Part shown: positions 1 to 64,000 of the stretch, piece by piece
How positions within the stretch are numbered: position 1 is the stretch's first letter
Layout of the letters: every line of letters starts with the position of its first letter
From: Hemileia vastatrix
Taxonomy: Eukaryota; Basidiomycota; Pucciniomycetes; Pucciniales; Zaghouaniaceae
Reading direction: 5' to 3'
Length of the DNA: 64,000 nucleotides
Assembly (NCBI GenBank): GCA_030280995.1
Contig: JASXTE010000007.1
Coordinates: 4,510,001 to 4,574,000 of the forward strand
Position numbers and translations under genes: made by a program
The notes under the pieces: model-generated
Told to the model about the DNA's origin: nothing
Databases searched by the model: none
The model's input: only the letters and a program-made list of their open reading frames with translations

Positions 1-62
1 CAGAGGAATCGTTAGTATTGATAGAACTCGGGGTAGCCAGCTTTCCTTAATACAACAGGGGC

Positions 63-480: not shown

Positions 481-537
481 TAATAATAATAAATAAGGGA
501 GAAAGAAATGGATGCGGAAAGAGAAACAACACCGCAT

Positions 538-547
538 CCATTTATAG
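538..547 (-). promoter_or_regulatory. TATA box of the Copia-A LTR
   Basis: The sense strand reads CTATAAATGG about 100 nt after the LTR start. Identical copies sit at about 5216-5225 and 9894-9903. The position fits a U3 promoter; the transcription start is inferred, not seen. Confidence 0.55.
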
Positions 548-659
548 AATGCTTGTAATATCGATATGTATTTAGACTAGAGTAGAATTATAAACTAACA
601 TATAATATAGTCGTTAAATATTATTATAGTAAGCGATGATATTTAACACCCTCCCGTGC

Positions 660-4646: not shown

Positions 4647-4756
4647 ATCGGGTAAAGCAGTGTAGGTAGAGTTATGATCAGAGGAATCGTTAGTATTGAT
4701 AGAACTCGGGGTAGCCAGCTTTCCTTAATACAACAGGGGCGCTGGGCCCATAACCC

Positions 4757-5326
4757 TGATAACAATGATAATAAAAGATTAGTGGACTTAGTGGACAGAG
4801 GGAGGATGGACACGAGAAGAGGTTGGACAAGGACAGAGAAAAATCTACCTGATAACAATGATAATAAAAGATTAGTGGACTTAGTGGACAGAGGGAGGAT
4901 GGACACGAGAAGAGGTTGGACAAGGACAGAGAAACTAGGGACAAAAGTAAAGATAAGTAAAGTGGACGAATAATAATAATAAATAAGGGAGAAAGAAATG
5001 GATGCATTGCTGAGGAAGAGCACACATACAATCTACCTGATAACAATGATAATAAAAGATTAGTGGACTTAGTGGACAGAGGGAGGATGGACACGAGAAG
5101 AGGTTGGACAAGGACAGAGAAACTAGGGACAAAAGTAAAGATAAGTAAAGTGGACGAATAATAATAATAAATAAGGGAGAAAGAAATGGATGCGGAAAGA
5201 GAAACAACACCGCATCCATTTATAGAATGCTTGTAATATCGATATGTATTTAGACTAGAGTAGAATTATAAACTAACATATAATATAGTCGTTAAATATT
5301 ATTATAGTAAGCGATGATATTTAACA
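4757..5326 (-). repeat. Copia-A LTR 2, shared by two tandem units
   Basis: Same boundaries as LTR 1, shifted by 4678 bp. It serves as 3' LTR of the unit to its right and 5' LTR of the unit to its left (minus-strand orientation). Confidence 0.93.
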
Positions 5327-5337
5327 CCCTCCCGTGC

Positions 5338-6486
5338 TCAAGACAGCAATGGATGAAGATTAAGTTTATCTACAAATTCATTATGTTTAATGCGAGAAAG
5401 TGATTTAGTTAAGATATCAGCACACATATCATTGGTCGAGACATAGTCTATATCTAATTCTTTATTGTTAACAAGTTCATGCAACCAACACACTCGGGTA
5501 TTGATATGTCTAGTTCGATGTTGATAGAGTGGGTTGAGAGCAAGTTTGATGGCGCCTTGATTGTCACCAATTAATTTGACTTCAGACAGTTGAATCGAGA
5601 AGTCATTAAAGAGTTCTTTCATCCAAAGTAAGTCTTGCCCACATTCAGTCATTGAGTAATATTCAGATTCAGAGACAGATAATGAAACGGATTGTTGTTT
5701 GCTGGAACGCCAACTGAGTAATCCTAAGTGAAAAACTAAGGTTCCAGATGTAGATTTTGAGTCTTCTGACTTATTGTAATCAGAGTCGGCATAGCCTGTA
5801 AGAACACCCAATTGAGAGTTAGTGACATTGCCCAAGGTAAGACCATAATTCTTGGTTAACTGAAGATAACGTAAAATATGGAAAAAAGATGTTATTTGTT
5901 GATCGGTGGGTTCATTGAGGTATTGAGCAAGAGCACTAGCTGCAAATGCTAGGTCGGGCCGAGTACAGAGAACTAGGTAGTTAAGCAGACCAATAGCCCT
6001 TCTGTAATTGAAAAGACTGGTTAGTTTAGTTGTTGAGCATTTGGTGAAATGAAGATTCGGAACAAGAGGGGTGGTAACAGTTCGACAGGATTCATGATTA
6101 AATTCTTTTAATATATTTTTGATGTATAATTGTTGAGAAAGTGTGATAGTTCGGTTTGATCTGTTTCTGGTGACCTTCATTCCAAGTACCCATTTAAGTT
6201 CTCCTTGATCATCCATGTCAAAAACTTGAGATATTTTGTTTTTGAAGTCGTTGACTGCTGGACCACCAATAATAAGATCATCGACATGTATGAAGACATA
6301 ACAGGGGTTCGCAAGATCTTGATTGAGAAACAGACAAGGATCAGCTTTGCTGGCCTTAAAACCAATGTCGGAGAAGAATGTAGCTAATTTATTATACCAA
6401 CAACGAGGACTTTGTTTCAATCCGTATAAGGATTTTTTGAGGTGAAGACAATAATCTTTATTTTTGGGTGAATAGCCATTTGGAAA
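5338..6486 (-). CDS. Copia-A unit B: rest of reverse transcriptase and RNase H
   Basis: Copy of 660-1808. The residue sequence from the first in-frame Met onward is identical to unit A, including FIHVDD, the RNase H motifs and the stop close to the LTR. Confidence 0.92.
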   Translation of the reverse strand, partial: FPNGYSPKNKDYCLHLKKSLYGLKQSPRCWYNKLATFFSDIGFKASKADPCLFLNQDLANPCYVFIHVDDLIIGGPAVNDFKNKISQVFDMDDQGELKWVLGMKVTRNRSNRTITLSQQLYIKNILKEFNHESCRTVTTPLVPNLHFTKCSTTKLTSLFNYRRAIGLLNYLVLCTRPDLAFAASALAQYLNEPTDQQITSFFHILRYLQLTKNYGLTLGNVTNSQLGVLTGYADSDYNKSEDSKSTSGTLVFHLGLLSWRSSKQQSVSLSVSESEYYSMTECGQDLLWMKELFNDFSIQLSEVKLIGDNQGAIKLALNPLYQHRTRHINTRVCWLHELVNNKELDIDYVSTNDMCADILTKSLSRIKHNEFVDKLNLHPLLS

Positions 6487-9324
6487 TCAAAGATAGAGAT
6501 CCTCGTCCGGTTCCCCATGTAAGAACGCTGATTTAACATCCATTTGATGAATTTCCCAGTCCTTGTAAGCAGCAATACTGAGTAAGAACCGAAGAGTTGC
6601 AAGTCTACCGGTGGGGGCATAAGTTTCATTATACTCTATACCCTCAATCTGAGAAAAGCCTTGCACACAAAGTCTTGCTTTATATTTGACGATATTCCCA
6701 TTAGAATCCGTCTTTTTCTTGAAGGTCCAAATAGTGCCTAAAAGATGATTATTAGCTGGAAGTGGAGACTCTTCCCATACCTTATGTTTGGATATGCTTG
6801 AGAGTTCAGCATTAATGGCTTTAAGCCATTCATCGCTTTCAGGTGAGTTTAGCGCTTGATAGTAATTTTGGGGAGTGTCGAATTGAGTGATGGCTAGGCA
6901 AGTCATATTGGCTCTTCTTTTGTTTGATAATATGTTGGAGGTGTCAATATCAGAGGAAATTTCTTTAGACGGTCGAAGATTTTTGTCGATATAAGTGTAA
7001 TGTTTGGATACCGGTGGTTCAGATGTTGCCATGTCAGGTGGTGATGAATTGAATTCAGGTTCATTTGACATAGCTTCGATTACGGGGTCTTCAAAAGTGA
7101 CTGATTTGGAAGTATTAGAAGGTGTAAAGTTGGGGCAGATGTCTTCTAGATCAGGAAATTGAAGTGTCTCTGCTGATTTTCCATTAGAGATTTTGCGTGA
7201 TAGGTTAAAGGTATTGAGAAATTTGACATCATGAGTTATAATAATTTTATCTTCAGGAATAGAGTATATTCGATAGTTAACATGTCCATCACAATAGCCA
7301 AGAAATATACCTTCTTCTCCACTCCTCTCAAATTTTCCGTTTCGTTTTGATTTTTGCAAGTGGTAGACGACATCTGAACCAAAAGGATGAAGATTGGTGG
7401 GTTCTTTGGAGTTTTTATGCCAGAGAACCCATGGAGATTTATTTGATTCGAGTGATGATGAAGGAAGGATATTAAGAAGGTATGTAGCCGTGTTAACGGC
7501 TTCAGCCCACCAGGTGGAATCAAGACCCGATTCAATCAATAGGCATTTGGCTTTCTCTACAATGGAGCGGTTACCCCTCTCAGCTATTGGATTCTGTTGT
7601 GGAGAATAGGGAGCAGTGCGTAAATGAATAATACCTTTATTTTTAAGATGATCTCGCATGGAATAATTAGTGAATTCGCCACCATTATCAGAGACAATAT
7701 TCTTGATTTTTCGGTCAAGTTGATTTTCGACTAATGTTTCGTATTCTTTATAATGATGGAACGTCTCAGATTTGAGTTCAAGAAAGTAGACATGTCGATA
7801 ACGTGAATGACCATCCACAATTTGAAGAAAATATGATTTGCCACCCCTGGATTCTGGAGTAATTGGTCCACAGAGGTCCATATGAATAACGTCGAGAGGT
7901 GATTCGGGTGTCGGAAAAGTTCCAGAATAGGGTAAAGTATGTGCTTTAGCTAATGCACAAGTTTTACAAGTAAATTTAGAGAAATTCAAACCTGGGAATA
8001 ATTTCTCCATGGTTTGATTACTAGGGTGCCCGTAATTATGATGTAGTAACATTAGTTTTTGTTCGTGATTGTTAACTGGAGTTGATAGGTTGTAGATAGG
8101 ATGGATTGATAAGGGAAAAGTTAAAATTTGTCCATTTGAATTGCAATTTATATATGAGGAGTCATCGAGTTTTATTTTGAATTGTCCAGATTCATTAATA
8201 AGACTCCGTCCGTCCGATAAAATATCGATGGCTGAGATAAGATTAGCTTTAACTGAGGGAATATAAAGAGAATCTTCAATTACAAAGTTATGACCTGCAG
8301 AGAGAAATGAAACTGTGCCTTGTCCAAGGGCAATAATTTCATCTCCATTGGCCATTGTTAAGGTGATATTGGAAGATTGATAAGATTTGAAGTACTTTAA
8401 GTCATTAAATATAGTAAACGAAGCGCCACTGTCCAGGATGGCATGGTCGTTAGGTAAATTGGATATAATTGATAAAACTTTGTGAGTGGTGTCCTTGTCT
8501 TTATTTTCCCTCTCTTTCTTTCTTTTTAAAAATTCATCTCGTTTCTCAGGATGTAGCTGGAAACAAGAAGATTCAGGATGAGGAGCTAGAGGGTTATGTT
8601 TTCCTTTTGAGCAAAACGTTTTGGCTTTCGCGTCCATAGTTAAAGCTGTCCCGGATGAATTATTGAGAGCCTTTCTCCTGGTGATCTTTGCTTCTATGTC
8701 GGAAAATATATTTTCAATGGTAGGTCGCTGATTAGTTATATCGTATTTACTTAGGATAATAGTAGCCGCGGTTTGGTAGGATTCAGGAAGTAAATTTAAT
8801 ACATAATTTCCCATAATATACAATAAAATGTTTTCTTTAAATAAATCAGGAGCTACTTCTCTGAGTAATTTCATAGTACTTCTGAATTCGTTAATGGCTC
8901 CTAACAGATTGCTTTCCGTGAATTTAATTTTGAAAAGTTGATTGACGACATAGGAACAATTCTGAGTGGATTTAGATGCGTAATGATCCTTAATACGAGA
9001 CCATAGTTCAGCCGGCTCTACTAGATCATCGTTGAGGACAAATTTGTCTTGATTAGGTCGATCCAAGAACATTTTAATTATTGTATTTGTTTGTCTTTGT
9101 CGCAACTTGAAAATACTTAGGAGCTCAGGATTGGTAGGTATTGATATGTCTTTAATAAGAAACTGATCCAAATTTCGTACAGTAAGAGCATATTTGATAT
9201 CGGTTTTCCAAGTACTGTAATTTTTGTCGTTTAACTTTTCAATGCCTTTTATTTCAGAATAAGTAGCAGAGTCTTGTAAATAAGAGAAGTCAGGAGAAGT
9301 AGTGGGGGTCGACGATTCAGGCAT
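6487..9324 (-). CDS. Copia-A unit B: gag, protease, integrase and start of reverse transcriptase
   Basis: Second tandem copy of the 945-codon frame, with the same domains (Gag, DSGAS protease, HHCC region, D,D,E integrase, RT start) and the same terminal TGA. It differs from unit A by three residues, caused by changes at 8688 (Glu to Lys), 8822 (Ser to Leu) and 7271 (Gln to Arg), plus silent changes. The shared TGA shows that the stop predates the duplication or was present in the source element. Confidence 0.93.
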   Translation of the reverse strand: MPESSTPTTSPDFSYLQDSATYSEIKGIEKLNDKNYSTWKTDIKYALTVRNLDQFLIKDISIPTNPELLSIFKLRQRQTNTIIKMFLDRPNQDKFVLNDDLVEPAELWSRIKDHYASKSTQNCSYVVNQLFKIKFTESNLLGAINEFRSTMKLLREVAPDLFKENILLYIMGNYVLNLLPESYQTAATIILSKYDITNQRPTIENIFSDIEAKITRRKALNNSSGTALTMDAKAKTFCSKGKHNPLAPHPESSCFQLHPEKRDEFLKRKKERENKDKDTTHKVLSIISNLPNDHAILDSGASFTIFNDLKYFKSYQSSNITLTMANGDEIIALGQGTVSFLSAGHNFVIEDSLYIPSVKANLISAIDILSDGRSLINESGQFKIKLDDSSYINCNSNGQILTFPLSIHPIYNLSTPVNNHEQKLMLLHHNYGHPSNQTMEKLFPGLNFSKFTCKTCALAKAHTLPYSGTFPTPESPLDVIHMDLCGPITPESRGGKSYFLQIVDGHSRYRHVYFLELKSETFHHYKEYETLVENQLDRKIKNIVSDNGGEFTNYSMRDHLKNKGIIHLRTAPYSPQQNPIAERGNRSIVEKAKCLLIESGLDSTWWAEAVNTATYLLNILPSSSLESNKSPWVLWHKNSKEPTNLHPFGSDVVYHLQKSKRNGKFERSGEEGIFLGYCDGHVNYRIYSIPEDKIIITHDVKFLNTFNLSRKISNGKSAETLQFPDLEDICPNFTPSNTSKSVTFEDPVIEAMSNEPEFNSSPPDMATSEPPVSKHYTYIDKNLRPSKEISSDIDTSNILSNKRRANMTCLAITQFDTPQNYYQALNSPESDEWLKAINAELSSISKHKVWEESPLPANNHLLGTIWTFKKKTDSNGNIVKYKARLCVQGFSQIEGIEYNETYAPTGRLATLRFLLSIAAYKDWEIHQMDVKSAFLHGEPDEDLYL

Positions 9325-9434
9325 ATCGGGTAAAGCAGTGTAGGTAGAGTTATGATCAGAGGAATCGTTAGTATTGATAGAACTCGGGGTAGCCAGCTTT
9401 CCTTAATACAACAGGGGCGCTGGGCCCATAACCC

Positions 9435-10004
9435 TGATAACAATGATAATAAAAGATTAGTGGACTTAGTGGACAGAGGGAGGATGGACACGAGAAGAGG
9501 TTGGACAAGGACAGAGAAAAATCTACCTGATAACAATGATAATAAAAGATTAGTGGACTTAGTGGACAGAGGGAGGATGGACACGAGAAGAGGTTGGACA
9601 AGGACAGAGAAACTAGGGACAAAAGTAAAGATAAGTAAAGTGGACGAATAATAATAATAAATAAGGGAGAAAGAAATGGATGCATTGCTGAGGAAGAGCA
9701 CACATACAATCTACCTGATAACAATGATAATAAAAGATTAGTGGACTTAGTGGACAGAGGGAGGATGGACACGAGAAGAGGTTGGACAAGGACAGAGAAA
9801 CTAGGGACAAAAGTAAAGATAAGTAAAGTGGACGAATAATAATAATAAATAAGGGAGAAAGAAATGGATGCGGAAAGAGAAACAACACCGCATCCATTTA
9901 TAGAATGCTTGTAATATCGATATGTATTTAGACTAGAGTAGAATTATAAACTAACATATAATATAGTCGTTAAATATTATTATAGTAAGCAATGATATTT
10001 AACA
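9435..10004 (-). repeat. Copia-A LTR 3, outer 5' LTR of the array
   Basis: Same 570-bp LTR, with A instead of G at 9991 (compare 635 and 5313), a change at a CpG. It marks the right end of the array; the next bases belong to an older LTR fragment. Confidence 0.92.
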
Positions 10005-13460: not shown

Positions 13461-14324
13461 CACCATGCAATATAGGGGGAGGACTTGCTAGCAAGTCCGC
13501 AACTTGAAGTCAGATGGAAATCAGATGGAACTCAGACTGAAGTAATACTGAACTTTCACTTGAAGTATCACACAAATAACAATGGATCTATATTGAAAAA
13601 ATAGTGAAAGTGTGAGGATAACTGAATGGAAGCCAGAAAAAATCATTCCATGAGTCTACTCAATTCAAAGTATTTTTTGAAACAGCTTATTAAAATAATA
13701 CTTTATTAAATTAATTTGATCAATAAAAATTGATTGACAATATTGCAATTCTTAAATACAATAATTTTATTAAAAAATTTCAGATTACATATAAAAAAAA
13801 TCAGTGACTTTTTCTATCACTTACAACTGTTTTTACAGAATTGAAAACTATGTTTCAGCTAATATTTTATGGAAGTGAACTCTGTTCTCCGCCCGAAGAA
13901 CAGAGTTCATCCTCCTATTTTCACACTCTGTTTGCACCAATCTCCATCCCTTTAATTCTATCAACACATGCTTGTCTTCCCTTCCCATGCCTTTCGCTAT
14001 CCTCCCAGCCCCATTGTATGCCATCCTCTTTTGATCCCCATTTCACCCCTCTCAACCTCTCCCAGACCCTTTTCTTCATTTAAAATGCCTCGGAACCCTT
14101 AATCTTCCCTTCCAACTCTTTCCCAACCTTTTCGCTACCCCATACACCCTTCCTCACCCCTCTCTCCAGCCTTTCCAGCCCTTGTAGCCCCATTTGTGTT
14201 CAATGTAAATTCAATACTTCTTCATGATGGTTTCATCACTTCCTCAATGTGTGCTCAAAAAGATATGAATTAGGGTTCAAGGTTGCGGACTTGCTAGCAA
14301 GTCCGCCCCCCATATTGCGTGGTG
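13461..14324. mobile_element. MITE (864 bp), family CACCACGCAATAT, copy 1
   Basis: Terminal inverted repeats of about 43 bp start CACCATGCAATAT and end ATATTGCGTGGTG. The target duplication is AGA (13458-13460 and 14325-14327), proven by the empty site in the sister LTR. Inside each TIR sits the palindrome GGACTTGCTAGCAAGTCC (13481-13498 and 14287-14304). A central 12-bp inverted repeat lies at 13877-13908. No transposase is encoded; short open frames inside are not conserved in frame between copies. A 3-bp TSD with a CACC terminus is closest to CACTA-like elements, but the superfamily is not established. Confidence 0.92.
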
Positions 14325-42440: not shown

Positions 42441-44404
42441 AAAAGCACACAATATACATGGATTATAAGATATGTATAAGATTATTTAATAAGTATATAT
42501 AATTAAGTAATTGATAAATTCAAATATTAAATTTATACTTTATAATTATAATATAGTATTAAATTAATTAATAAATAATTTATTTTTATCAAATAAATTG
42601 ACAAAACAATCATATCTTATAGAATAAAATGTATTTTTTTTAATTGTATATACAATTTATATTGTAATTAAATTCATATAAATCTTATTTTAATTTATTA
42701 TTATGAGTTAGTTATGTAATTTTATTGCTTAATATAATCCTAACTTATGTACATAATATAAATATACATTCAACCATTTTTAAGTCCAATGGAATTTTAT
42801 AACATTTAATGGACTCCTGGTACATCTTGGCTGACAGTATTATATTATATTGTATTTCATTCATTTCACTTACTATTATTCTATTCTATTCTATTTAATT
42901 AATTTTGTTTTAATTCTTTATATTTTCTTCCCTTTCATCTTAATTTAATGATTTATATCTTATTTTATTTCAAAAGGTGATAATACATATGCAAATAACA
43001 GTTTTTGGATTCTTAAAATTAGCTGGTGAACTCTGATGTACACCCATAGATCAGAAATCACAACCTAATTACATGCATGTAGACTCTGATCTACAGCTGC
43101 ATATCAGAGCACCACATCCAATTTGATGCATGTGACCTCTGATCCACATCTGTAAACCAGACTTTTCCACCCATTCTTATGCATGTGGACTCTGATCTAA
43201 GGCTGTACATAAGAGTACCACATCCATTTTATTCCTATGGGCTCTGAGCTATGGCCATAAATCAGAGTTCACCAGACAATTTTAACTAACTTAATGCTTC
43301 TACATTGCTATACAACAGCATTTATAAAGTCTAATAAAATGAATTAAATGAAATTAAGACTTATTATAGTGTAATTAGATATAAAAAAGACAGATAGATG
43401 AGTATAATAGCTAAAATTAAAAAAATATAAATACAAATGGTGTAAAATGAAATAAATTAAATTAATTAATTTTTCTATATTTTGAAAATGAATTTGATAA
43501 AGTGCAATAAAATAAAATAAAATATTAATATAATAAAATAAAATTATATAAAAAATAACCAAACACAACTCAATATAATAAAATACAATAAAATTTAATT
43601 TGATTAAATTTTAGTTAATTTATTAAATAAAATGAGTGCATTAAAATATAATAAATTATAATAAAAACAATAAATTAAATTTAAAAATTAAATAATATAA
43701 CATAAAATAAATTTATACTGAATTTTTTTTAATATTTTATTTAAAATGAGTTTTAATAGGTATATGCAATTAACTTATTTGTATGAATATTAATTAAGAT
43801 ATTTCATATAAATTTTCAATATGAATTTTGCATATGTATCTTAAATATGAAGTTTAATATGCATATTAAATATAAATTTTTTATGCATAATTTTTTGAAT
43901 GAATATTCCAATTGAAATTCATTATACATATGAATCATCAACTTAAATTTACATACTAAATACCATTTTGAAAGTGAGTATTCAATTTCACTTATCCTGA
44001 TTTAAAATAATATTGAATGACTGAAGAATATCAAAAATTTAATCAAAGAAAATTAAATTTGTATTAGTTTTCTAAAATTCATAGATTGGAAAACTGTGGA
44101 TTTTTTTTAGAAAAATATTAAATATTTAAATATGATTTTTAATATGATTCAAACTATTTTAAATAAGTTTTAAATTTAAATACAAATATCACTTAAAAAA
44201 TTGATAGTTTTAAATAGGTTTTCTTCTCCATCTTGAACTTTAATTTAAAATACTAAGTCAAATTATGTGCTTGAGCTTTACAGTGCTTGGAATGATTACT
44301 GAAACTTTTTTCACTCAAAATTTAAAATGAGTTCATTTCACTTTCATTATGATACCACTAAAGATTTAGCTAGGTTTTTACAATAGTTCAAGTTGGTTTT
44401 CAAG
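42441..44404. other. AT-rich DNA with an old 53-bp repeat
   Basis: Apart from the repeat at 43022-43286 only AT-rich sequence without recognisable coding is seen. Short open frames here are compositional. Confidence 0.7.
43022..43286. repeat. 53-bp tandem repeat, five diverged units, each with an inverted repeat
   Basis: Units start at about 43022, 43075, 43128, 43181 and 43234, exactly 53 bp apart. The best unit contains CTCTGAT-12 nt-ATCAGAG. Other recurrent parts are GCATGTGGACTCTGATC and CACCACATCCA. Confidence 0.85.
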
Positions 44405-50614: not shown

Positions 50615-50652
50615 CACCACAGAAAAAATGGGGGGGTATTGCTAGCAATACC
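50615..50652 (+). mobile_element. Left terminus of an element related to the MITE family
   Basis: CACCACAGAAAAAATGGGG followed by the perfect palindrome GGTATTGCTAGCAATACC (50635-50652). The layout (CACCAC end, G run, palindrome with TTGCTAGCAA core) equals that of the MITEs at 13461 and 59345, but the sequence differs. The interrupted Gypsy-6 gag ends here. The matching right end was not found in the window. Confidence 0.65.
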
Positions 50653-52558
50653 CCTTGCTTGAACTCCGTTGAGCCACAAATCTATGCTTGAATTATGCAC
50701 ACATCATCACCATGTAGGAAATTGTTTGGCCTTACATTTAGTCAGAGATTTGTCACAAATTGAGCTCAAGATGAGCCTACATTGATCACCGTTTGATCTT
50801 GTAAAATCCTAATTTGATCATCAGTTGAACTCCCTTTGATCTCACTTTGATCTAACATAAGCTTTTGCATATCCAATATGTCAACTATTCACTTTCAAAA
50901 AGATTCGTAATGAATTTCACATGGAATATTAGAAGCGAAACCAGTAATTTTTAGTAAATGGCTCATCAAAATGATTAATCTACAACAAAATACCATCAAA
51001 ATTCAATCTGATTACTGAAAACATTTGGTAAAATGACTAATAGATATTTAAATTGGAAAATAATATTCCATTTCTCAATTTCAAATTCAAAATATAAATC
51101 CTCATTTGAAATGTGAATTTTGTAGATTCCTTGCCTTCCTATATTATGAGTAATATTTGAGGTATTTTACACCTTTGTAAATATGGTGTTGTGCTGCTAG
51201 AAATTATCTCTTTTTCAATTCAACTTTATTGAAGCTTGATTCCAGAATGATACATATTTTATAACTATTTTGAGAAAAAAGTCACTAGTAATGAATTTAG
51301 CCTTTTATCTGTCCTTTATTAAACCTCACTTAATCCTACTTAAATCCAAATTGACCCACAAAAACCTTATTTGGGATATTTTTAGCCCAGGATGATTCAA
51401 GATTGGAGAAAAATATTATTTTAAATATCCAATATGTCTATTGATTAAATTTCTTCAAGCTTACTTTAAATTCACATTAACATTAACTTTCACAGGAAAT
51501 ATTAAACACAAATCTTGAAAATATAGTATTTAAAATCATAATAAATATAATATAATATGCTTACAACAAAATTTTCTTTCTGGATTAATTGAAACAAAAA
51601 ATTGTTCATTTGTGAAAATAGAAAAAATACTATCCATCCTGAATTTAGAATTCATTTTTAAAAATTTAATGCCCCCTCACTTTCAAGTTTATCATGTATT
51701 TCAAAAATTATATTTTTAATAATTTTGTGAATAATACACCTGAGATATAAACTTGGGGATATCAAAAACTAAAACATCAGCAAATTGAAATGTTTTTTAT
51801 TGTTATGAATGGAAATAATGATTGAAAAACACCATTAGAGCAAGTTTGATTTTGAATAATAGGCATACTTTCTCGTATAAATTTCAATAAAAATAATTTT
51901 TATTCTTACATAAGTTGCGGTGGATACATTTGAGCTCAAAAAGAATTAAAATTGACAAAATAAGACTTCTATAATTCATATTCAAAAATGAAATCACCCT
52001 TCATTATCTACCTGTAAACTATTTTAAATTGAATGATTTCAAAGTCAGTATATACTGATGTTATTTTTTCTTCTAAAAAATTTATTATATAGATTAATAG
52101 TCATAAACAGTTGACATAGATGTTAAATTTATATAAGCAATCTTTAATTCATAAAATGATAAAACTATCTTTTATGTAAAAAGTGATGAAGGAAAAAAAT
52201 ATTATTAAATTTTTGATGCACTATCAATAAAATTGAAGATAGAGCATATCAAAAGTTTAAACTTAATTTCAATTTTGATATCATCATTTTATTTTATTTT
52301 ACTTGAGTAGAAAACAGATTTTAAATCTCAATATAATTTTAAATCCCATTAGTTTGTAGATTTCAACATTTGAAACTATGAAATAAATATTTATGAAAGA
52401 ATTTTACAATATTTGCCCTTCTAAAAACTCATAAATCCAACTTCAAATCTTCTAAACTTCACAAGTAACCACAATGCATTCTGAAAATACTCTATATTTA
52501 AATAATTAAAGGTAAATAAAATTATGTTTTTATTCTTTATTTCAATTTTTGATAAATA

Positions 52559-52589
<31 letters not shown>

Positions 52590-55500
52590 ATTTCTTAAAA
52601 AGTCTAAGAGGGAACTTAATAGTGGTTTTGGCATTAGATATATAGATTCAACTTTCAAAAAATTTGTTTGGAATAAATTACAAAGACAAAAAGGATATAT
52701 TTTGATGAAAGAATACTGATTTAGGTTCTCTTAAAATATTATTAACCATTTTTATGGAATATTAATCCATGGTTATCATTCTTTATGATATTATCATACA
52801 ATTTTTTCCTTTTTTAATATAATGATTTTCTATTGTGTGGTATTTAGGCTAAGATAAGTTTAAAAGATTTATTGAAGATATATATACCAGAAACAGTATA
52901 ATCTGTAGATTTATAACTATAACTTACTTTTCTGATGTTTTACATCATTGATAAGTAGCTCATGCATTACACAAGTAAATAATTATAGTCTCTGGAAATA
53001 ATTCCTTGTGAATTTCAAATTTTTTGTTATTCTTAAAATCATTACTCAAATAAACTAAAAATTTCTTCAAATATTGGTTGAAAGAAGGAGTTACAAAATC
53101 TTATTTTGTAGTTATAAAAGTTTGAGTTATTTTTCATATTATCAAGTATAATGAACATTTGTAAATTTTAACTTGAAAACTAGTGATCATAGCAAAGTAA
53201 TACTGGAAGAATCAGATAAAAAGGGTGGAATAAAGTCATAGCACAACAGGAAATGATACAAAATTGTTGATTTTTATCTCACAAAATTCAACATATTTTT
53301 AACATATTTTACCACCTTTAGATAATTTTTAGTGGATTTTAACATTATTATAACAAGCAAACTTAACAATGTTTTGATTTTTTTAACAAAAATAAATATT
53401 GTTAGATCATTTTTTTAAAAAATATGACTTATTTTTATGCTTTATCTACAATAGTTAGTAGTTTTTTTTGCAGAAATTATTTGTTTTGATATTCTATTTT
53501 TGAATTTTTTAAGAGACTTCATTGCATTAAAGTTTTGTAATAATTTTTCATGAAAGCATCATATTTTAAATCTAGAGATTTGGTTTTGAAATAATATATA
53601 ATTTCATGTTAATTGACTCATTATTTTTGGATTGATAAATTATGTTAAAATTGGGATTGCTTATTTCTAGTGAGTGTACATCATAGTTTGTTTTCAAATC
53701 AAAGATTAATAAATGGTGAAATTTGGTAAAATTCTAAATATCTTTTAAACCTTTTTGGTTTAAATAATGTTTAATGTTATGTAATCATTCTATAAGTAGA
53801 ACACAGTTAAAATCTGATAATGGTACATTGCTTTCAATTTCTAATACTAAAATTCTATTCTACTTGAAACAATGTAAACTAAAGCTTGGTATCTCATAAG
53901 AAACTCACAATTTTCAAAAATCATATTTCCAACTTTTTAAACATGATACACATTAAAATATATTTTTAGAATAATTTCCTAATTAGTTTCAAATACTAGA
54001 AAATAATGACCTCAATTTATTTTAATACTTAAACTATTCTGATGAGTGAATTTCACAATCCTCTAAGTAACATATGGTTACCATTTATACACATATGCAT
54101 GATTTCTCCTTTTGTTTAATTTTAGCTGAATCTAAAAAGTAAAATCACATTTTGAATATCATCTATAGATAAACTTCTTATATTAGAAGCTAATATTTCA
54201 TATGAGAAATTTGTTATTGAGTTTGGGAAACATTAATAAGTGTTGGGTATTATAATTGAGCCATTTATTCAAGTAAATAAAAAAGGATGACCTTCTAATT
54301 ATTTCATATATATATATATATATTTATATATATAATAAAAATTAATTATATAGTAGCATTTAACCATGTTTTTATACTAATGTCATAAAAAAAGGGATTG
54401 AACTAAAACTTTCAGTAAAGAAAATAAAAATAAGATAAGTTAATATTCTTGTTTATATTCTCATATTTTTGAAATGGCTTACTTAAGGGAGAAAATTATT
54501 TGGTTTTAGAGTACAAGAATTTCTAGATAAAAATCTTCACAATATAGTTTGACCCTCTCAAAAAGAAAATTCCTCAAATTTTACTATCACATTTTATATA
54601 TTTGTTAAGTAATAGAAAATGGAGTTTTGTCTTTGACAATGAAGCTTTAGAAAATGAAATAAATGATTTAAATTTATAATATAATTTTTGAAACAATAAA
54701 TCATGTATTCAAAAAAAAATTATATATCTTACAATCAAGATAACAGTATTAATTAAGCAACTCTAACAACTTTGGAAAGAAAACAAGAAAAAAATAATTA
54801 GTAAAATGCATAAGTTATTTTTAGAATTTAAGGAAACTTAATAGCTCTACCTGTAAACTAGCCTTAAAGCAGGTTTGGATTTAACATGTGGAAATTCATA
54901 CATAGTACCCTTCCATCATTGGAGCAGAATAAAATTTATGTAGTTTTATTTTTTTAATTTATAATAGTATTTTTATTTTTGGCTTTTTCATTATTATAAC
55001 AATATATTTTTTAACTTTTTTGTTTTTCATAACATTAGTTCAAAGCTGCACATCACTACTTCAAGATGAAACTCCATATAATGTAATAAATGAATGATAT
55101 ATTATAATGAATTTTACTAGAGACTTTTCAAAAATGGTGATTAAGAATACTTATTATAATTTTTTAAATTTTTATTATTATTCTATCTCTTGAAAGGAGA
55201 TGGCCATATCTCAATTTAATTAGTTTTTCCTCAGAAAAATTTATTCTTGATCTAAATAAAATTGCATCACTATTAACTAGATGTTATTATACAATTTTAA
55301 CAATTTTTTTATCTGAACATAGTTGAAAGTATGTATAAATTAAAGTGTTTCCACATTGTCTTACTATTATCCCACCATTATTTTCACATTTAGATCTCAT
55401 TATAACTGTAAAATAAGTTTTTCAATAATTTTAATAATACCTTAATATTTAATAATTTAGTTACATAGTAGATTTTTTATCCTTTTTTTATATGAGGCTT

Positions 55501-56489
55501 ATTATATAAACAACACTTTTAGATTTTATCCATTTTGATGTCTGATAATTTAAATTTTCATTTAACTACCCAAATTATATCAAAAAAAATTCAAAAGTAT
55601 ATTTTTTAATGTACTCTTTTTAATAAACTTATCTTTTCTTAAAGGTTATTCTTCAACTATTTATTGTAATTAATTACCCACTCATTTATGGTCTGTTATT
55701 GTTGTTCATTACATACAGACAAAATAAGGATACTCTCATATTATATTGGAGTTTTAAATTAAAAAGTAAATACTAGTGGCTGGTATTAAATATGAAGTTG
55801 TTATAACTAAGTTGAACATTAATTAATTATTAAATGGCATTTTATATTACAAATTTTATTGAATGTATATAAAAATAACACTCAAGAAATATATATAAGA
55901 TATATATATAACCATTGTATATCAAAAATGAAGTACTTATCAACATGGTCTTTTTAAATGATTTTCAAATTTACTTAAAGAGACATTAATATTATCAATT
56001 CAAATTTTATATCAAATATAAAAATATTATTATTTCATTTTTAATTATTTTACAAAAAATTTGAGTTTCAAAGTAATTAAATTCAGTATTTAATGAATGT
56101 TTTTGAAAAATATTTTTAAAAATAGAAGTAACCCCTCACAAAAAAAAATATAATTTTTTTACTTACAATTTGCACCATATTTCTACCCTTAAAATATTTG
56201 TATTCTTCTAACAAAAATATTTTTTAAATAAATTTAAAATTTTTTTCATTATTCAATTACAAAATGTCAAATTTAGAATTTATTTTACCTTACTAAAAAA
56301 TTTAGTTGAAAATTTAATTTTGTATTTCCAAAAAATAAACTTAAATGTCAAAAATTAAAAAAACAAAATTATAAATATAATTATGACAAAGAGGTAGATT
56401 AAATTTATAATATTCATATAAAAAAAATTCATATATTTTATGGTGTTTGAATTTTAAATTTAATGTATTAAAAAATAATTATTAAATAA
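50653..56489. other. Very AT-rich block without recognisable genes
   Basis: About 5.8 kb of A/T-dominated sequence with no open frame of 60 codons or more, no LTR, and only simple repeats such as TATATATA at 52560-52590 and 54308-54335. The first 250 bp repeat TGAACTCC and TTTGATC words reminiscent of subterminal repeats. It may be the interior of the element that starts at 50615 or decayed older DNA. Confidence 0.7.
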
Positions 56490-57190
56490 CCAAGCCAAAT
56501 GAAATTGGCTTGGATTTTTGGTATCACTAGCACTTATTTTTTTTCTTATACTCACATTTTAATTTTTAACTTTTTTTTTCTTTTCTACATTTCTCATTTT
56601 ATTTTATGATTTTTAATGTTTTTAAGACTGAAGTTGCTTTCAAACAACTTCGGTCTAACGTTTCTCTCACTTTACCACCAGATTGCACCTGGTAGGGAAA
56701 GTTGCTTCCATTTTAGAGACCAAAGTCCCTTGCAGGGACTTTGGTTTCTCTGTGTGCATTGCACAGCCAGAAAAAAACTGGCTGTGCAATGCACTGCATG
56801 CAGCACATGCAACACACATCGTTGCTGCAAGTAATGCGCGTTGCATGCAGCGCGCGTTGCATGTGCTGCGCATATCTCATGCAGCTGACTTGATATCAGC
56901 TGCATGAGATATGGTAGCGATTGTGCAACGCGCATTACTTGCAGCAGCAACGCACGTTGCACACTGCTTTGGCCACCTCCCAGCCTAGTAAATTAGCTGG
57001 GAGGGTGGCAAACATTACAGCAAGCAATCGAAGTCGCTAAAAGCAACTTCGATTGCTTGAAAGAGACACTTCCAGCCAGGGGAAACCTGGCTGGAAGTAC
57101 TAAATTGCAATGTAAGGGACCCAAGCCAATTTCAAAGGCTTGGGTCATAAATTAAGGTTTCTAAAAAGCAGCCAGTATAAATCTGGCTGC
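56490..57190. repeat. Train of eleven consecutive hairpins
   Basis: Inverted repeats follow each other at 56490-56513 (9-bp stem), 56625-56656 (12 with one mismatch), 56670-56701 (imperfect), 56717-56747 (11 core), 56755-56793 (16, loop A7), 56820-56952 (outer arms 26 bp with one extra triplet; inner 18-bp hairpin 56871-56913), 56972-57009 (13 with one bulge), 57021-57059 (14), 57068-57098 (13), 57118-57146 (10) and 57168-57190 (8). The block is much richer in GC than its surroundings. No coding region is convincing. Several stems share words (GCCAG/CTGGC, CCAAGCC/GGCTTGG, GAAGT/ACTTC). Confidence 0.92.
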
Positions 57191-58344
57191 AATAAAAAGT
57201 AAATTTTTTAAATAAAATACATAAAAAAATAAAAATGTGTTCAAATAAAATATACAACACTCTTCAGCCAGTAAGAAACAGCCTTCCATTGTTACACATA
57301 GAAACAAAATCAAATGTTTCTTTCATCAACATTGGCCATGTTTCAATATTTTGAACCAAGTAAGATCAGGAAAAAGGTCACGGCAAAAAAATTGCATAAT
57401 TAAAAGTCTCCCAATTTAATATGGTGCGGAGGTTCATATTTTAGAAATAGGTGGTGCACATTATAGTTCCCTTTAAAAAAATTCAAAAATGAATTAATTT
57501 TGGTGCAATGTAAATTTAAATGTGATGAGTGTATGTTTTTTAGCTACGTGAAACATGGTAGCTAGAATTATGTGGCGTCAATTTTTTTTAGATGTGAAAT
57601 TCAGTGTTCCACAAATGTGCATCTGTACAACATGCAGCCAAGTAAATTCTAGCTGGAATTAGTATATGCATAGGAAAAAATGATCATGCTGTGTACAGTG
57701 CCTTGGCAACATCATTCTTGGAATTTAGATGAAGTTTATCATATGACTTGGAGAGCTGCATTTTTTTGAAAATGTGATCAGTGAAAATTCATGATATATA
57801 CATCTGTTTGCCACCCAATTTATTTTTCCTTTCTCTTTCTCACTTACCTTTTTCAAAAATTATCAATCATATTTTTTCTTTATCATTTTGATTTATTGGT
57901 ACTATTTTCTTGACCTTATCTGATTACCGGTAAGCAAATTTTTCTTGCTATTGCATTTCATATCATTTTGGTTTGTTACACTTTTTTACACTTTTGACAA
58001 GTTAATCTAAGGATTCTAATTCTGAATTTATTTTTATGGTATCTTTTACTGTACCCTTTTGATTCATTATAAAATAATTCTTTTTCAGTTAACTTAAAGT
58101 TTTTTTATTTGTTTGTCAATTTACTTTTCTTTATTCCTTATCAAAAATGTTCAATTTATTTATCTAACCATTTATTTTTTAAAACAGTGATTATAAAATA
58201 AACTTTATAATTAATTTTGATCAATCAGCTACAAATGGAAGAAGATTTTATAGACATTTAAGTTCATGTTTTGCTTATCATTTTTCTATATTTCTTTAAT
58301 ACTTTCTCAACCATTATATTATTAATATGAAAAGTAAAACATCA
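57191..58344. other. Non-coding AT-rich DNA
   Basis: No gene or known repeat is recognised. Composition is intermediate between the hairpin block and the AT-rich flank. Confidence 0.6.
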
Positions 58345-58690
58345 TCTCGTACATGCTGAAAGCATACAGGATAATGTTTTGATTTTCATAATAATAATTA
58401 GATTGTTTGTACTTTACCTTTAATTTATTGATTTTTAAGTTGTTTCAAAGTCTCGTACTTGCTGAAAGCATACAGGACAATGCTACAATTTAAAAATTAA
58501 TAATTTATTGAAGTATAACTTTCTAAGTCAATATATTTATCAGAGAAAGATTTTTCATTTTATATATGTGGATATCATAATTCCGTAAATTTTTTAATAT
58601 TACTAGTGTATTGGAGTTATACTTTCATTATATTATTAATATTAAGTGTAGAGCCAAATCTCGTACTTGCTGAATGCATACAGGATAAAG
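58345..58690 (+). repeat. Three spaced copies of a 32-bp sequence upstream of the Tet-like gene
   Basis: TCTCGTACTTGCTGAAAGCA followed by TACAGGATAATG occurs at 58345-58376, 58451-58482 and 58659-58690 with one to three differences. The spacing is 106 and 208 bp, i.e. one and two steps of about 105. Each copy contains TGCT-GAA-AGCA, a short inverted repeat. All are in the same orientation as the gene that begins near 58937. Confidence 0.85.
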
Positions 58691-58936
58691 CTATACTCTT
58701 TATATGTATAATTTAATAAATTATACCTTTGAAACGCTTTCTTAATATTTGAAATAAAGAAAAAGTATATAAATTTACTAATATGTAGATATGCTAACTT
58801 TTGTATTTCTAATATTGAAGATATGATAAAGTTAAAGGTATCATTGACTGATAATTGAAATTATGTTACTATTTTCTAATTTTTGATTTTTTTCTATTTT
58901 AAATCAAAATTGAATTCTCTTAGGATTGAACCATCA

Positions 58937-61035
58937 ATGAGTAACGATTTGAAAAAAAAAACGGCCAGGGAAGAACTCTAACAATAGGTGGGCGAAAGAC
59001 ATTGCTACTGGAATGAAGCTTGTAAACGCTCTTGGAATGGATACAAACGGGAAGAAGCCACATTTCTATGCACAATCTTATGCAAATAATTTGACAGATT
59101 GCAATAATTATTACAATTTTTTTCCTGGATGTAGTATTTATAAACCAAAAGGTGTCTTAATACCTAATGTTCTTGTGCAGACTTTTGAAATTCATGAGCT
59201 CAAAGAACTAGATATGTTAGAAGCTACGGTGCAATGCATTAAGGATCTTTCTTACTGCGAACATGAAATTAAAAATAATGGTTATCATCGAAGAGCTGGT
59301 GGTTTTGTAAAAATGTTTGGTGGTGGCTTTATTTTAGATAGAAACACCACGCAATATGGGGGGTGGACTTGCTAGCAAGTCCGCAACTTGAAGTCAGATG
59401 GAAATCAGATGGAACTCAGACTGAAGTAATACTGAACTTTCACTTGAAGTATCACACAAATAATAATGGATCTATATTGAAAACATAGTGAAAGTGTGAG
59501 GATAACTGAATGGAAGCCAGAAAAAATCATTCCATGAGTCTACTCAATGCAAAGTATTTTTTGAAGCAACTTATTTAAATAAAACTTTATTAAATTAAGT
59601 TGATCAATAAAAATTGATTGAAAATATTGCAATTCTTAAATTCAATAATTTTATTAAAAAATTTCAGATTACATATAAAAAAAATCAGTGACTTTTTCTA
59701 TTACTTACAACTGTTTTTACAGAATTGAAAACTATGTTTCAGCTAATATGTAATGGAAGTGAACTCTGTTCTTCGGGCGAAGAACAGAGTTCATCCTCCT
59801 ATTTTCACACTCTGTTTGCACCAATCTCCATCCCTTTCAATTCTATCAACACATGCTTGTCTTCCCTCCCCATGCCTTTCGCTATCCTCCCAGCCCCATT
59901 GTATGCCATCCTCTTTTGATCCCCATTTCACCCCTCTCAACCTCTCCCAGACCATTTTCTTCATTTAAAATGCCTCATAATCCTTAATCTTCCCTTCCAA
60001 CTCTTTCCCAACCTTTTCGCTACCCCATATACCCTTCCTCACCCCTCTCTCCAGCCTTTCCAACCCTTGTAGCCCCATTTGTGTTCACATGAGCTTCAAG
60101 GTGTGTTAAAAGTAAATTCAATACTTTTTCATGATGGTTTCATCACTTCCTCAATGTGTGCTCAAAAAGATATGAATTAGGGTTCAAGGTTGAGGACTTG
60201 CTAGCAAGTCAGCCCCGCATATTGCGTGGTGAAAGAAATCTTTACATATTCGTAAGTATCACTTTTTTTAATTTAAATACTGAATTTTTGAATGCTTTTC
60301 CTTGCAGATGAATACACTGATGATATTGTAAAAACGGATGAATATAAAAAACGAATGAAGAGGATTACAATGTACTTTGAATATTTTTTTAAAAAAATAT
60401 CATATGTAAAGTACAATGAGGCAACTAATCTTTGCGCAAAACTTGGTATCCCTGGATTTTCAAAAGTTTCTAGTGAAGAAGAGGGTGTATCGTTTGCTAG
60501 TAATTTAACTTGGACATCTGGAGGGAATGGTAATGGGTTCTCTAATGAGGTTCATCTCGATAAGGATGCAAGTGAGTATACTTTAGGAATATTTTTTCCT
60601 AAAGATACAGAAAAAAACACCATTCATATGAAGTATGATAAGACCCAACCACGACAAATAGGTGGAGAACTTATGTTTCCCGAAATTCGAAGTAAAATCA
60701 ACTTTGAAGCAACTAATGGAATAACAGTGACATTATGGCCTGCAAATCAACTAAGGCATTTTCCCTCAAGATGTCATGAAATTCCTGGCTTCACTAGGAT
60801 AGGTTCTTCTATTCAAATCAGCACTAGACTTTTTCATGCTATAGAAAAGCTTAATGTTTTTGATATTGATATTTCAGAATACTTAGAAATTAAAAAAGAA
60901 AAATTTAGGTTAGAATATTTGATTAGTGCTTTGAGAGTTTTTTTGAAAAGAGATGACTTAATAGAGGAAGAAATAGAATCAGCAAAGTATTATTTATCTA
61001 ATGTTAAGAAAAATCTAAAAAATCTAGATATATAA
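58937..61035 (+). pseudogene. Tet/JBP-like 2OG-Fe(II) oxygenase gene interrupted by a MITE
   Basis: The first part (open from 58962, ATG candidate 58937 separated by an A10 tract, 58952-58961, that puts it out of phase) encodes RWAKDIATGMKLVNALGMD, and HRRAGGFVKMFGGGFILD. At 59345 a MITE cuts the exon; removing it with one TSD copy keeps the phase up to a splice donor GTAAGT directly downstream. An intron of about 50 nt ends TTCCTTGCAG (about 60299-60308), and the last exon runs to 61035. It shows an HxD iron motif in SNEVHLDKDASEY, GGELMFPE, LWPANQLRHFPSRCHE (second His candidate) and SSIQISTRL (Arg candidate for 2-oxoglutarate). This pattern fits the Tet-like 2OG-Fe(II) oxygenases common in rust genomes; relatives oxidise 5-methylcytosine, but activity of this group is not established. 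The start is uncertain. Confidence 0.75.
59345..60231. mobile_element. MITE (887 bp), family CACCACGCAATAT, copy 2, inside the Tet-like gene
   Basis: TIRs begin CACCACGCAATATGGGG and end ATATTGCGTGGTG; the target duplication is AAA (59342-59344 and 60232-60234). Palindromes GGACTTGCTAGCAAGTCC at 59365-59382 and, with one change, 60194-60211. The central inverted repeat at 59761-59792 has a 15-bp stem and a 2-nt loop. It is highly similar to the MITE at 13461 along its whole length, apart from small indels such as the extra bases near 60083-60110. Confidence 0.93.
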
Positions 61036-61834
61036 ATATTAAAAATTTATATTATATATACACAACTTAATGCAAGTTTAAACATGATAAATACTGGGAG
61101 TAGCTGTAACATTTTCAGTTTTGATAATTATAGTATTATCTATTTTTTTTATTTGTGAAATAAAATAATTTTTTTTCATAATATTATAAGAAAATTTGAT
61201 TTACTTTTGAGGAAATATATAAGTTGTGAAATCTTTAAATGTCATTTTTATTAAATTGGTAGCAAAGGTTCTAAAATAAAAAAAACTATAATAAAGAATT
61301 TGAAATATATTAGCCATAAAAATGTGCTTTTAATGCTACCAAATTAACTGTATAGTATTTTAGGTCAAACAGGCTTATTAATAAAAAAGTTAATAATAAA
61401 GAGTTGAAGAAATAATTTTGAATCAATAATAGATTAAATTGTATTTTTTTAAGAATTTACTCATTTAATTATTTAAATTGTTCTACTTCTGATTAAAAAT
61501 GTTACAATCAATGAAAATATTTGTAATAATTAATAGATTATATAATATTAAAGGTAAAGTAACAAAACTAGAGCAGTTATCATATTTTTATATAAACAAT
61601 AAAATATTTAATAATTTAATACAAGTATTTGAAATCATATAAGTAGATTTTAAAATCTTTGTTATTGCTGGACTTACAATAATTTTTTTTAATAATTGAT
61701 TTAGAAAATCATGTCAAAGGTTACTTAATAAATTTCAAAGATGGTCACATTTTTGACGTATTTGAAGGAAAATAACTTGAATTATACAAGATATATCATA
61801 TAGACAGAACTTTATCTATTTACATGTTGGAATA
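61036..61834. other. Convergent intergenic region
   Basis: AT-rich, between the stops of the Tet-like gene (plus) and the unknown gene (minus). No gene is recognised; it should hold the 3' UTRs of both. Confidence 0.7.
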
Positions 61835-64000
61835 TTAATTTGTTGAAAGGCTATGTTTAGCAAAAAAAGGTGATACTGGCTGAATGGAGCTCCAGTGATT
61901 AAGAAAATCTGCAGAAATAGCCCTAGCAATTCCAGGAGGACTTGGGGTATCAAATTTTAAAGGAAATGGATCACACTTGCCTATAAAAGGTTTTATTAAT
62001 GTTAAAATATAGTTATTTAAATTTTTCCAAATTATTTCTTCCATCAAATGATTTTTTTTTTCATGTAAATTAAGAAACTTAACTTCTGATATTACCTCCA
62101 AGAAATCAGCTGCTGAAGCCAATCTATGATCTTGAGAGCTCAGAAATAAACCACGGACACCATCGATTATATAGAATGTGAAAGATTGATATCGGTGGTG
62201 GGAGTATTCAGATTTTATTTTGTTTAGTGCAGCCTTTTGTTTCTCTCTCATTATAGTCAGTTCAGTATTTTCGTTTTTCTCACTTGATTGTTGAGCTTCA
62301 CTAGTCTTGCCACTTGATATTGTTTCAGCACAATATTTTGATTTAAGAATGATAATTGACATAATTATATCAATGATAATAATGCTGATTTGAAGAAGAG
62401 TTGACATTGATATATCACGGGTTTGAAGTGCAGTGGGACCAACTTCTAAGCCATCAGAAATCGGACTCTTCAGATTTGAAAGGTGAGCTAGAAGCTGAAG
62501 ACCACGTTCAATTGGACAATCTGAGTTAATATTTTGATGTGATGGAAGCTGGCTGAATTCATGTGTGGTCAGATAAAGTGAAGATGATATAAGAGATACC
62601 CATGAAGAACGGCAGTGGTCACTTGGGATCATTAATCTCATGAGCATTCGGATAAGATTGGATTCAGGGTGATCCGTTTTCTTTGTTGAGGAAAGAATTT
62701 CAGTATTTAAAACATCAGGATCACATAAATCTTCCATTTTTTTGAAATCAATATTATCGAGTACCCATAGCTGTGAGCTATCAATCTCTAAAAAAATATT
62801 TGCTACAAAAGGAAAAAAAAAATAAGTAAAAGAACAAAAGTCAAGACTAAAAATTATGGTAACTTACATAACTCAGTAAGTTTTGAAAGCCAATCTTCTC
62901 CACAAGATTTTTCCCAATGAAAAGTAAACATTGGAATATTTGACATGGGTTCTTGGGAAGAAGTAGAAGAGCGTAATTCGAGGAGAGTAACAATTTCTAA
63001 CCACGACCTGAGGACCTTTGCCATGCTGATTCTACCTTTATAAAAATTATGAATTTTACAGAATTCCTCCTGCAAATCAGATTCTTTTAGAACTGAGGGT
63101 GAATAAGTTAGAGGTTTTTTCAATATCTTGATTGGAGTTGATTTCATTGGTAGAGAAGCTTTCAAAGTGGTCAAAGTAGGTAATTTAGGAGGTGATGGGT
63201 ATTGCTTCTTAGAAATGAAGGAATTCGGTGATGAGCTGTTTGAATCATCATCTTTATCAAACATATCAACATGTCTTGAAGAAGATTTTAAACTTTGCTT
63301 TTTTTGATGAACAAGCATAGCTTCATATTCTGACAGTTGATCATCGCTATTTTCATTGCTCTTTTCATCATCTTCATCAGGGAGAGGGCATTTATGGATG
63401 GAACAATCTACAGCAGGTGAGTTTCTGGTACAAAATATCAAAAGAAAGATAAAAAGTACAATATGTAAGCAATAAAAGAGATATATGATAGAATTTTAAA
63501 GATAAAAGAATAACAATAAAAAAAAAGGAAACAAGAATATACTCATTATCAAAACCTTTGCTTTTTTTTTGAGATTTATTATTTGATACATCAGAAAATT
63601 CATTAGCAGAAGCCGGTCTAATACGTCGAACAAAAGAGGAGCCTTGGGATAATCTCTTTTTCTTGGAGCGAATAACAGGTGTTTCAAGATTTTCCTTAGA
63701 AGTTGAAGCATGAGTTAAATCTGATGGTTCATCTGTCTCATCATCATCCCTAATGACAATGATTTCATCAGGAGGAATCATACCCTCCTCATAAGCTACA
63801 AATATATATGAAGAAAAAAAAATATTAATAATCTTATCTACTAATTTAAAAGGAGACAAAAAAGGTGATGAACATACATTTTTCAAGGCTTTTCACATAT
63901 TGGAGTAAGTCATTACAAGGGTTAGATAAATAAGAAGGAGAAGGATTATTGTTAAGGATCTTGAAAAGCTCTTCTGTTTTATCTCTAGCCAATTCAAGTA
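61835..64000 (-). CDS. Hypothetical multi-exon gene, 5' end beyond the window
   Basis: Four exons are visible on the minus strand: 63878-64000 (partial), 63543-63795, 62868-63424 and 61835-62802, with GT-AG introns of 82, 118 and 65 nt (donors GTATGT, GTATAT, GTAAGT; acceptors TTGTAG, TACCAG, TTGTAG). The reading phase is kept across all junctions and gives more than 600 residues. The front half is hydrophilic, acidic and serine-rich, with a basic patch RSKKKRLS; the middle has KSTPIKILKKPLTYSPSVLK; the last exon is mostly helical, with a hydrophobic run (LLQISIIIIDIIMSIIILKS) that may be a membrane or buried helix, and YIIDGVRGLFLSSQDHRLAS. No family is recognised. Unlike the transposon frames it has no nonsense changes, so it may be a functional host gene. 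It is convergent with the Tet-like gene. Confidence 0.75.

Follow-up and report, generated by a model that had tools for sequence, protein, structure and literature searches.

A hairpin array with a variable palindromic centre lies inside a giant, high-copy EnSpm/CACTA-type transposon carrying a Tet-like dioxygenase in Hemileia vastatrix

We analysed a 64,000-nucleotide stretch of Hemileia vastatrix DNA (the window), which a whole-genome search places at G000:C42:4510001-4574000 of the 747.6-Mb assembly. Its right-hand part belongs to a giant EnSpm/CACTA-type DNA transposon (Table 1). Reading of the adjoining DNA puts the right end of this element 14.4 kb past the window edge, for a total length of 27,790 bp (26,900 bp without an 887-bp insertion and its 3-bp duplication). 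The element is bounded by 41-bp terminal inverted repeats (TIRs) that are 95% identical, the right one at window-scale 78364-78404. It begins with CACCAC and ends with GTGGTG, the CAC..GTG form expected of TET+ EnSpm/CACTA elements, and is flanked on the left and on the right by the 3-bp target-site duplication (TSD) TAT (one copy checked). A subterminal hairpin, GGGGTATTGCTAGCAATACCCC, is present at both element ends. The surrounding DNA suggests that the element was inserted in a Gypsy element, with a gag-like open reading frame to the left by our own reading, and an aspartic-protease match below cut-off (E 0.011) and an integrase-like reading to the right. Farther away, positions 12-9943 hold a tandem Copia element whose near-identical open reading frames return every 4,678 bp.

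Between its ends, the transposon encodes a tnp2 transposase (PF02992, E 1.5e-15; score 57.5 bits, the cut-off being 28.6), a Tet-like dioxygenase, an SNF2-type helicase and gene X, for which we obtained no Pfam match. None of 281 candidates in a large protein database matched the Tet-like protein at E 0.001. The 887-bp insertion disrupts the Tet-like gene of the window copy and is absent from all 36 other copies covering that site. This insertion and a second, related non-autonomous element of CAC..GTG type at 13461-14324 share the subterminal hairpin GGACTTGCTAGCAAGTCC, and the ends of both look like those of the giant element. A further small element at 43013-43285 has inverted ends of 43 bp (84%); the CTCTGAT...ATCAGAG hairpins that occur several times inside it make up a second hairpin row of the window.

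Table 1. Features of the transposon. Positions are those of the window unless a locus prefix (L) is given. Counts out of 40 overstate the uniformity of the hairpins, because the 40 copies are those most like the window.
Feature	Position	Strand	Evidence or remark
EnSpm/CACTA-type transposon	50615..64000, on to G000:C42:4588404 (window-scale 78404)	+	TIRs, TSD, copies
Left TIR, CACCACAG...	50615..50655	+	partner at L052:4364-4404
AT-rich non-coding left part, almost CpG-free	50656..56489	.	nearly 6 kb; no ORF of 150 aa or more
Hairpin array 1, short centre	56490..57190	.	stems, folding, genome copies
H1	56490..56513	.	identical in 35/40 copies
H2	56625..56656	.	one CpG-type mismatch in window copy; perfect in 27/40
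H3	56675..56696	.	stem
H4	56715..56749	.	identical in 37/40 copies
H5	56754..56794	.	17-bp stem, A7 loop; identical in 33/40 copies
Variable palindromic centre (H6, H7, H8)	56795..56967	.	short here, long in L053-L058
H9	56968..57012	.	identical in 33/40 copies
H10	57021..57059	.	14 bp perfect, 18 bp at 94%
H11	57068..57098	.	13-bp stem; identical in 35/40 copies
H12	57118..57146	.	identical in 36/40 copies
H13	57168..57190	.	identical in 38/40 copies
Apparent decayed relatives of CAGCCAG...CTGGCTG hairpins	57265..57656 (57265, 57635)	.	short matches
Three 104-bp direct repeats	58312..58729	.	65-74% to first; between array 1 and Tet-like gene
Tet-like gene, first coding part	58953..59344	+	ORF; disrupted by insertion in window copy
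887-bp insertion, CACCACGC..GCGTGGTG	59345..60231	.	TSD AAA; within Tet-like gene; CAC..GTG type
Tet-like 2OG-Fe(II) dioxygenase, main part (PF20515)	60292..61035	+	E 2.2e-21
Gene X, apparently with introns	61835..64000	-	5' end near L051:265 by reading
Array 2, palindrome CATTAATTTCGATCGAAATTAATG about 17 times (at most 5 mismatches)	L051 ~1,300-3,240 (window-scale 65300-67240)		upstream of gene X
SNF2-type helicase gene	L052:1450-3511		near right end, inside element; SNF2 and helicase-C domains

Array 1 is a row of hairpins that precedes the Tet-like gene by about 1.8 kb. As DNA, the block folds at -198.5 kcal/mol, against -93.4 +/- 7.1 kcal/mol for 20 dinucleotide shuffles (z -14.8), in agreement with the view in the initial annotation that so many stems exceed chance. 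The minus-strand RNA fold of the block reaches z -30.4 (20 shuffles). When a 200-bp frame was moved along the 64 kb and compared to 25 shuffles at every step, 17 of 638 frames gave z < -4; the six starting at 56601-57101 gave z -7.3 to -14.0, and the next lowest, at 58301 (z -8.4), lies outside the block in the stretch of direct repeats. Six of the window's 12 perfect stems (10 bp or longer, with 4 or more G/C and loops of 3-30) fall in the block, which is a GC-rich island (0.43, compared to 0.21 in 51.0-56.4 kb) as had been described. The stems of array 1 are mostly different sequences, and the short words said to be common to them could be confirmed: AGCCAG-N3..12-CTGGCT occurs three times in the block and 0.00 times on average in 100 shuffles.

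The individual stems named in the initial annotation are all present, with 18 bp at 56871-56913, 14 bp at 57021-57059 and 13 bp at 57068-57098, although some details require correction. The stem with the A7 loop, given as 16 bp, has 17 bp and spans 56754-56794, and the 26-bp outer stem is perfect over 23 bp (56823-56845/56924-56946) and longer with mismatches. Likewise, the row is real, but it comprises 12-13 hairpins rather than eleven, the number varying with the way one counts the nested centre. Finally, the suggestion that the block is the end region of a large element holds insofar as it is part of one; we rejected the remainder, as the element's ends are 5.9 kb away to the left and roughly 21 kb to the right.

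Array 1 recurs throughout the genome. Of 1537 candidate places, the best 40 were scored, and these (the window itself plus 39 more, at 95-97%) match the block practically from end to end; at least 40 full-length places thus exist, arguing against the idea that the inverted copies are assembly chimeras. The match extends leftward in all 39 fetched copies (5.8 kb each), and rightward to and beyond the start of the Tet-like gene in 36 of them, ending at 58694 in L019, 57745 in L035 and 57578 in L037. Because these matches run beyond it, the block must belong to some larger repeat. Together with the element ends, this leaves very little doubt that it is an internal part of the giant transposon carrying the Tet-like dioxygenase.

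The genome-wide abundance of this transposon was estimated from its ends. The end pattern (at most 2 mismatches) was found at 1417 forward and 1392 reverse places, with 0 for backward controls, and hairpin H5 (at most 3 mismatches) at 1385 places. Among the 95 end places listed on contig C2, 74 form 37 pairs and 21 are single; the pairs among these places have a median length of 27,079 bp (range 24,715-49,166), and 27 of the 37 measure 26-29 kb. These numbers point to ~1,400 copies of ~27 kb, which by simple arithmetic amounts to near 38 Mb or ~5% of the assembly.

We compared the copies of array 1 with one another, adding to the 40 window-like copies 20 further arrays that each contain an exact H5, 6 of them chosen for two exact H5 copies and 14 not. 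The outer hairpins keep a constant order in the arrays read. The H2-H3-H4-H5 spacing is constant in the further arrays, as is that of H9-H10-H11 (53 and 47 bases), while the H1-H2 distance varies by some bases and the H8-H9 distance is either 97 or 75. Two arrays (L059, L066) are without the right half, and one (L068) is too decayed to measure.

The centre behaves differently. At 56830-56872, the 40 window-like copies fall by nearest template into seven classes (A 15, E 6, B 6, B2 5, D 3, C 3, W 2). The H10 loop reads TTT in 33 of these copies and AAA in 7 (the window and 6 others), a loop inversion. Mapped onto a tree of the flanks for 38 copies (L035 and L037 left out; L019 kept, although its long branch may be an artefact), the classes change 23 times, compared to a shuffled mean of 22.4, and the H10 loop 6 times, compared to 5.7, a lack of tree signal that is weak alone because the flank tree is poorly resolved. 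Counted on the same copies, flank divergence is 1.62% for same-class pairs (133) and 1.41% for different-class pairs (570), such that copies of the same class are not closer to each other. More telling, eight copies (L012, L013, L023, L030, L033, L034, L036, L044) have in common an insertion at 55036 with TSD TAA, its joint checked in seven and L023 assigned by its match. These sister copies differ at 8-21 of ~3,170 flank bases, yet belong to classes A, B2, D and E, and the group would be suited to dating changes within the array.

A longer form of the centre is seen in other elements, some of which have a second H5 copy 149 bp from the first. In L053-L058 and L070, the centre is 310-328 bp long. 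An array in this long form comprises roughly a dozen hairpins arranged about a single near-palindrome with a 7-base loop. Five of these arrays (L053, L054, L055, L056, L057) contain a perfect stem of 62 bp, or 82-87 bp with at most 3 mismatches; L058 has a 43-bp stem and a tip loop of A7 instead of T7, and in L070 the scan gave solely the 17-bp stem of the first H5. A pattern for the second H5 occurs at 153 places genome-wide, a rough upper figure because a first H5 whose loop is flipped would be caught as well. Among ten exact places of this pattern, up to C26:41033688, 6 have two exact H5 copies, 3 have one and 1 has none. The long form is therefore present in at most about one element in ten.

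Most short centres resemble the long form with pieces removed. In 57 of the 60 arrays (excluding L059, L066 and L068), the centre comes in 13 lengths and has 51 distinct sequences. When the 51 centres shorter than that of L053 are aligned to it allowing at most 6 mismatches, removal of one block from the long form accounts for 29 of them, and removal of one or two blocks for 41; the one-deletion fit has a median of 5 mismatches, compared to 103 with a shuffled centre. The fit is exact for L021, L025, L026 and L033, each missing 149 bp, and for L056, missing 18 bp. Many deletion joints share 5-34 bases and some share none. Ten of the 51 centres, including the window's own (7 mismatches with two deletions), lie outside the limit, so other rearrangements occur too. 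In L059, which lies in a 17.6-kb end pair on C18, the Tet-like gene and gene X are gone and the centre is fused straight to array 2; in L066 a break within the centre is followed by a different repeat. We had at first read the centre classes as inversions, a reading that L053-L058 led us to replace with deletions from the long form; the inversions that remain are loop flips, with the second H5 loop being T7 or A7 among arrays, and a reversed H8 in L065.

Together, these comparisons give good support to the centre being unstable, deletion-prone palindromic DNA. Blocks would be lost from the long centre by slippage across a hairpin, for which shared bases at the joints are expected, and loops would flip singly via fold-back template switching or cruciform resolution. 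From the pattern of the copies, we consider this combination of slippage deletions and loop flips the probable mechanism of rearrangement, and we infer that the direction of change is from long to short.

Decay of the copies offers some indication of their relative age. Scored by mismatches to the majority in six other hairpins, seven long copies have 0-1 and the ten short copies that could be measured among the 20 further arrays have 1-13 (Mann-Whitney p 0.0009; Spearman -0.80, n 17), in a sample that favours undecayed long copies because six arrays were chosen for two exact H5 copies. Across all 57 copies, the correlation between centre length and mismatches is -0.43 (Spearman); restricted to the 40 window-like copies, it falls short of significance (rho -0.24, p 0.14), and six short members of that set (L017, L018, L021, L025, L026, L038) are free of mismatches.

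CpG content distinguishes the array from the DNA to its left. From 51115 to 56614 (11 bins) there are 2 CpG in all, and the two bins that follow, where the greater part of the array lies, have 17 and 4; CpG is present also in the element's genes and in array 2. Variation concentrates at these sites, with 2.6-2.8 variant cells per site at CpG compared to 0.3 elsewhere (38 copies), and C-to-T change peaks at TCG, with 0.11 inside the array and 0.15 outside it, compared to 0.005 away from CpG. This bias agrees with the TCG hypermutation reported for Pucciniomycotina (PMC12730594). Consistent with stem erosion by CpG decay following rearrangement, as we propose, the mismatches of H2 and H10 in the window are CpG-type changes absent from most copies, and the majority array has 22 CpG and a fold of -355.0, compared to 17 and -339.1 in the window. 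Array 2 has its segments in both orientations, and stretches of ~500 bp match two further copies inverted, at 90-96%. The presence of two CpG-keeping palindrome arrays in one element argues for some use, though kept CpG could equally reflect recent acquisition or a lack of methylation.

What this use might be is a more tentative matter. We suggest that array 1 may be a structural control region for the Tet-like gene downstream of it, one that would act via its folded shape and would help the element stay expressed under CpG methylation. The weakest step is that source copies would keep or renew the long form since it is useful to them. A control-region function of the array is, in our estimate, possible but less probable than its absence. 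The account as a whole, a transposon palindrome array with an unstable centre and a control-region function, seems to us somewhat better than an even bet. A bolder version, in which the Tet-like dioxygenase and a polycistronic hairpin array, yielding small RNAs or acting as a cruciform control region, would form a two-part anti-silencing kit, is improbable on present evidence; if true, the kit would act against the host methylation machinery, and the palindrome would be lost quickly after insertion, such that its presence would mark recently active copies. In this assembly, the DNA methyltransferase domain PF00145 has 8 matches, all on contigs C228, C561, C74 and C350, at positions below 126 kb; these contigs may be contaminants and the host methyltransferase may have been missed.

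The strongest competing explanation is that the palindromes have no function, having been made and expanded by fold-back template switching in one successful element, and are now decaying. The marks of hairpin-driven mutation in the centre are clear, and template switching can create perfect hairpins (PMC8794818). Weighing against such a by-product are the two separate palindrome arrays of one element, the persistence of an unstable long form among little-decayed copies (albeit in a selected sample), and the retention of CpG in the array when it is nearly absent to the left. We give this explanation roughly one chance in three.

Alternatively, the array may be a hairpin-RNA locus that is transcribed and diced to small RNAs, which could silence host genes. 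The 62-bp perfect stem of the long form and the strong folding of both strands would suit such a precursor, and there is precedent in a rice CACTA element whose miRNA, miR820, represses a methyltransferase gene (PMC3459959). However, a search of the window against Rfam gave no family at its gathering score, and those stem mismatches that have become fixed in the majority of copies would be G-U pairs equally often on either strand (2 and 2, a tiny sample); read by hand, this lack of strand preference gives no sign of RNA-level constraint. We regard the hairpin-RNA locus as unlikely. The two results bear equally on the structured non-coding RNA raised in the initial annotation, which is a possible reading.

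In plant CACTA (En/Spm) elements, repeats are subterminal protein-binding motifs, in a region that extends no more than a few hundred bases inward from each end. A comparable binding array for a transposase or accessory protein would explain why AGCCAG...CTGGCT heads are common to several stems and why a single palindrome is repeated ~17 times in array 2, and the plant elements resemble ours in superfamily and in having repeats in both orientations. By contrast, array 1 is internal, 5.9 kb from the left end and ~21 kb from the right and thus outside any such subterminal region, and most of its stems are unlike in sequence, making this interpretation decidedly unlikely.

Two remaining explanations fare worse still. 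A cluster of small independent palindromic MITEs that landed here, akin to the breeding ground of small palindromic mobile units raised in the initial annotation, is very improbable: MITE-like elements do occur in the window (43013-43285, 13461-14324, 59345-60231), but the left flank shared by all 39 fetched copies speaks against independent movement, and H5 is not commoner than the element ends (1385 compared to 1417 and 1392). Palindromes are difficult to sequence, but an artefact of sequencing or assembly is hardly credible given the same array at dozens of unlinked places and an identical, exact 149-bp deletion in four copies at separate places. We also considered homology to viral contigs, as three IMG/VR stretches of 64-65% GC contain the 27-base H5 hairpin pattern, and rejected it because no array match in these stretches falls below E 0.6.

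Comparison with described elements brings our transposon close to the TET-carrying EnSpm transposons of Pucciniomycetes, including rusts, which have CAC..GTG ends and 3-bp TSDs (Kojima 2025, PMC12730594). Like them, it combines such termini and a 3-bp TSD with an EnSpm-type transposase and a Tet/JBP gene aboard; unlike those elements as presented in the main text of that article, it has an SNF2 helicase, ~1,400 copies and two palindrome arrays. That main text contains the terms 'hairpin', 'subterminal' and 'SNF2' 0 times, and its sole use of 'palindrom' concerns the ends of TET segments shared by two families, which are without palindromic sequence. According to its section 4.2, the function of the TET genes in these elements is experimentally unvalidated. 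En/Spm elements far above the usual size are also known from Chondrus crispus (16-20 kb with 4-5 ORFs, PMC6431247) and soybean (a CACTA element of 20.5 kb), though these are smaller than the 27,790 bp found here, and the passage and title in question name no hairpin array.

The behaviour of the array likewise has partial parallels. The miR820-bearing elements of rice are CACTA elements with a hairpin, which in their case is a miRNA precursor with a shown target and counters host methylation (PMC3459959); ours has a dozen stems, for which a role as RNA is putative. Deletion-prone palindromes and template-switch hairpins have been reported (PMC8794818, PMC4134008), with the same slippage across a hairpin and reverse-complement copies as in our arrays, whereas here the changes run in parallel in many copies of one transposon. 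Among the literature matches listed, from a search that left most subscription journals outside its reach, none concerned hairpin arrays inside such elements, and the palindrome array of TET+ EnSpm elements may be undescribed so far.

With one palindrome array replicated naturally ~1,400 times in the same genome, the transposon allows the formation, flipping and loss of DNA hairpins to be followed in each copy as a function of insertion age. Furthermore, the array is a structure-rich non-coding region in a TET-carrying transposon, and might contribute to the escape of such elements from methylation.
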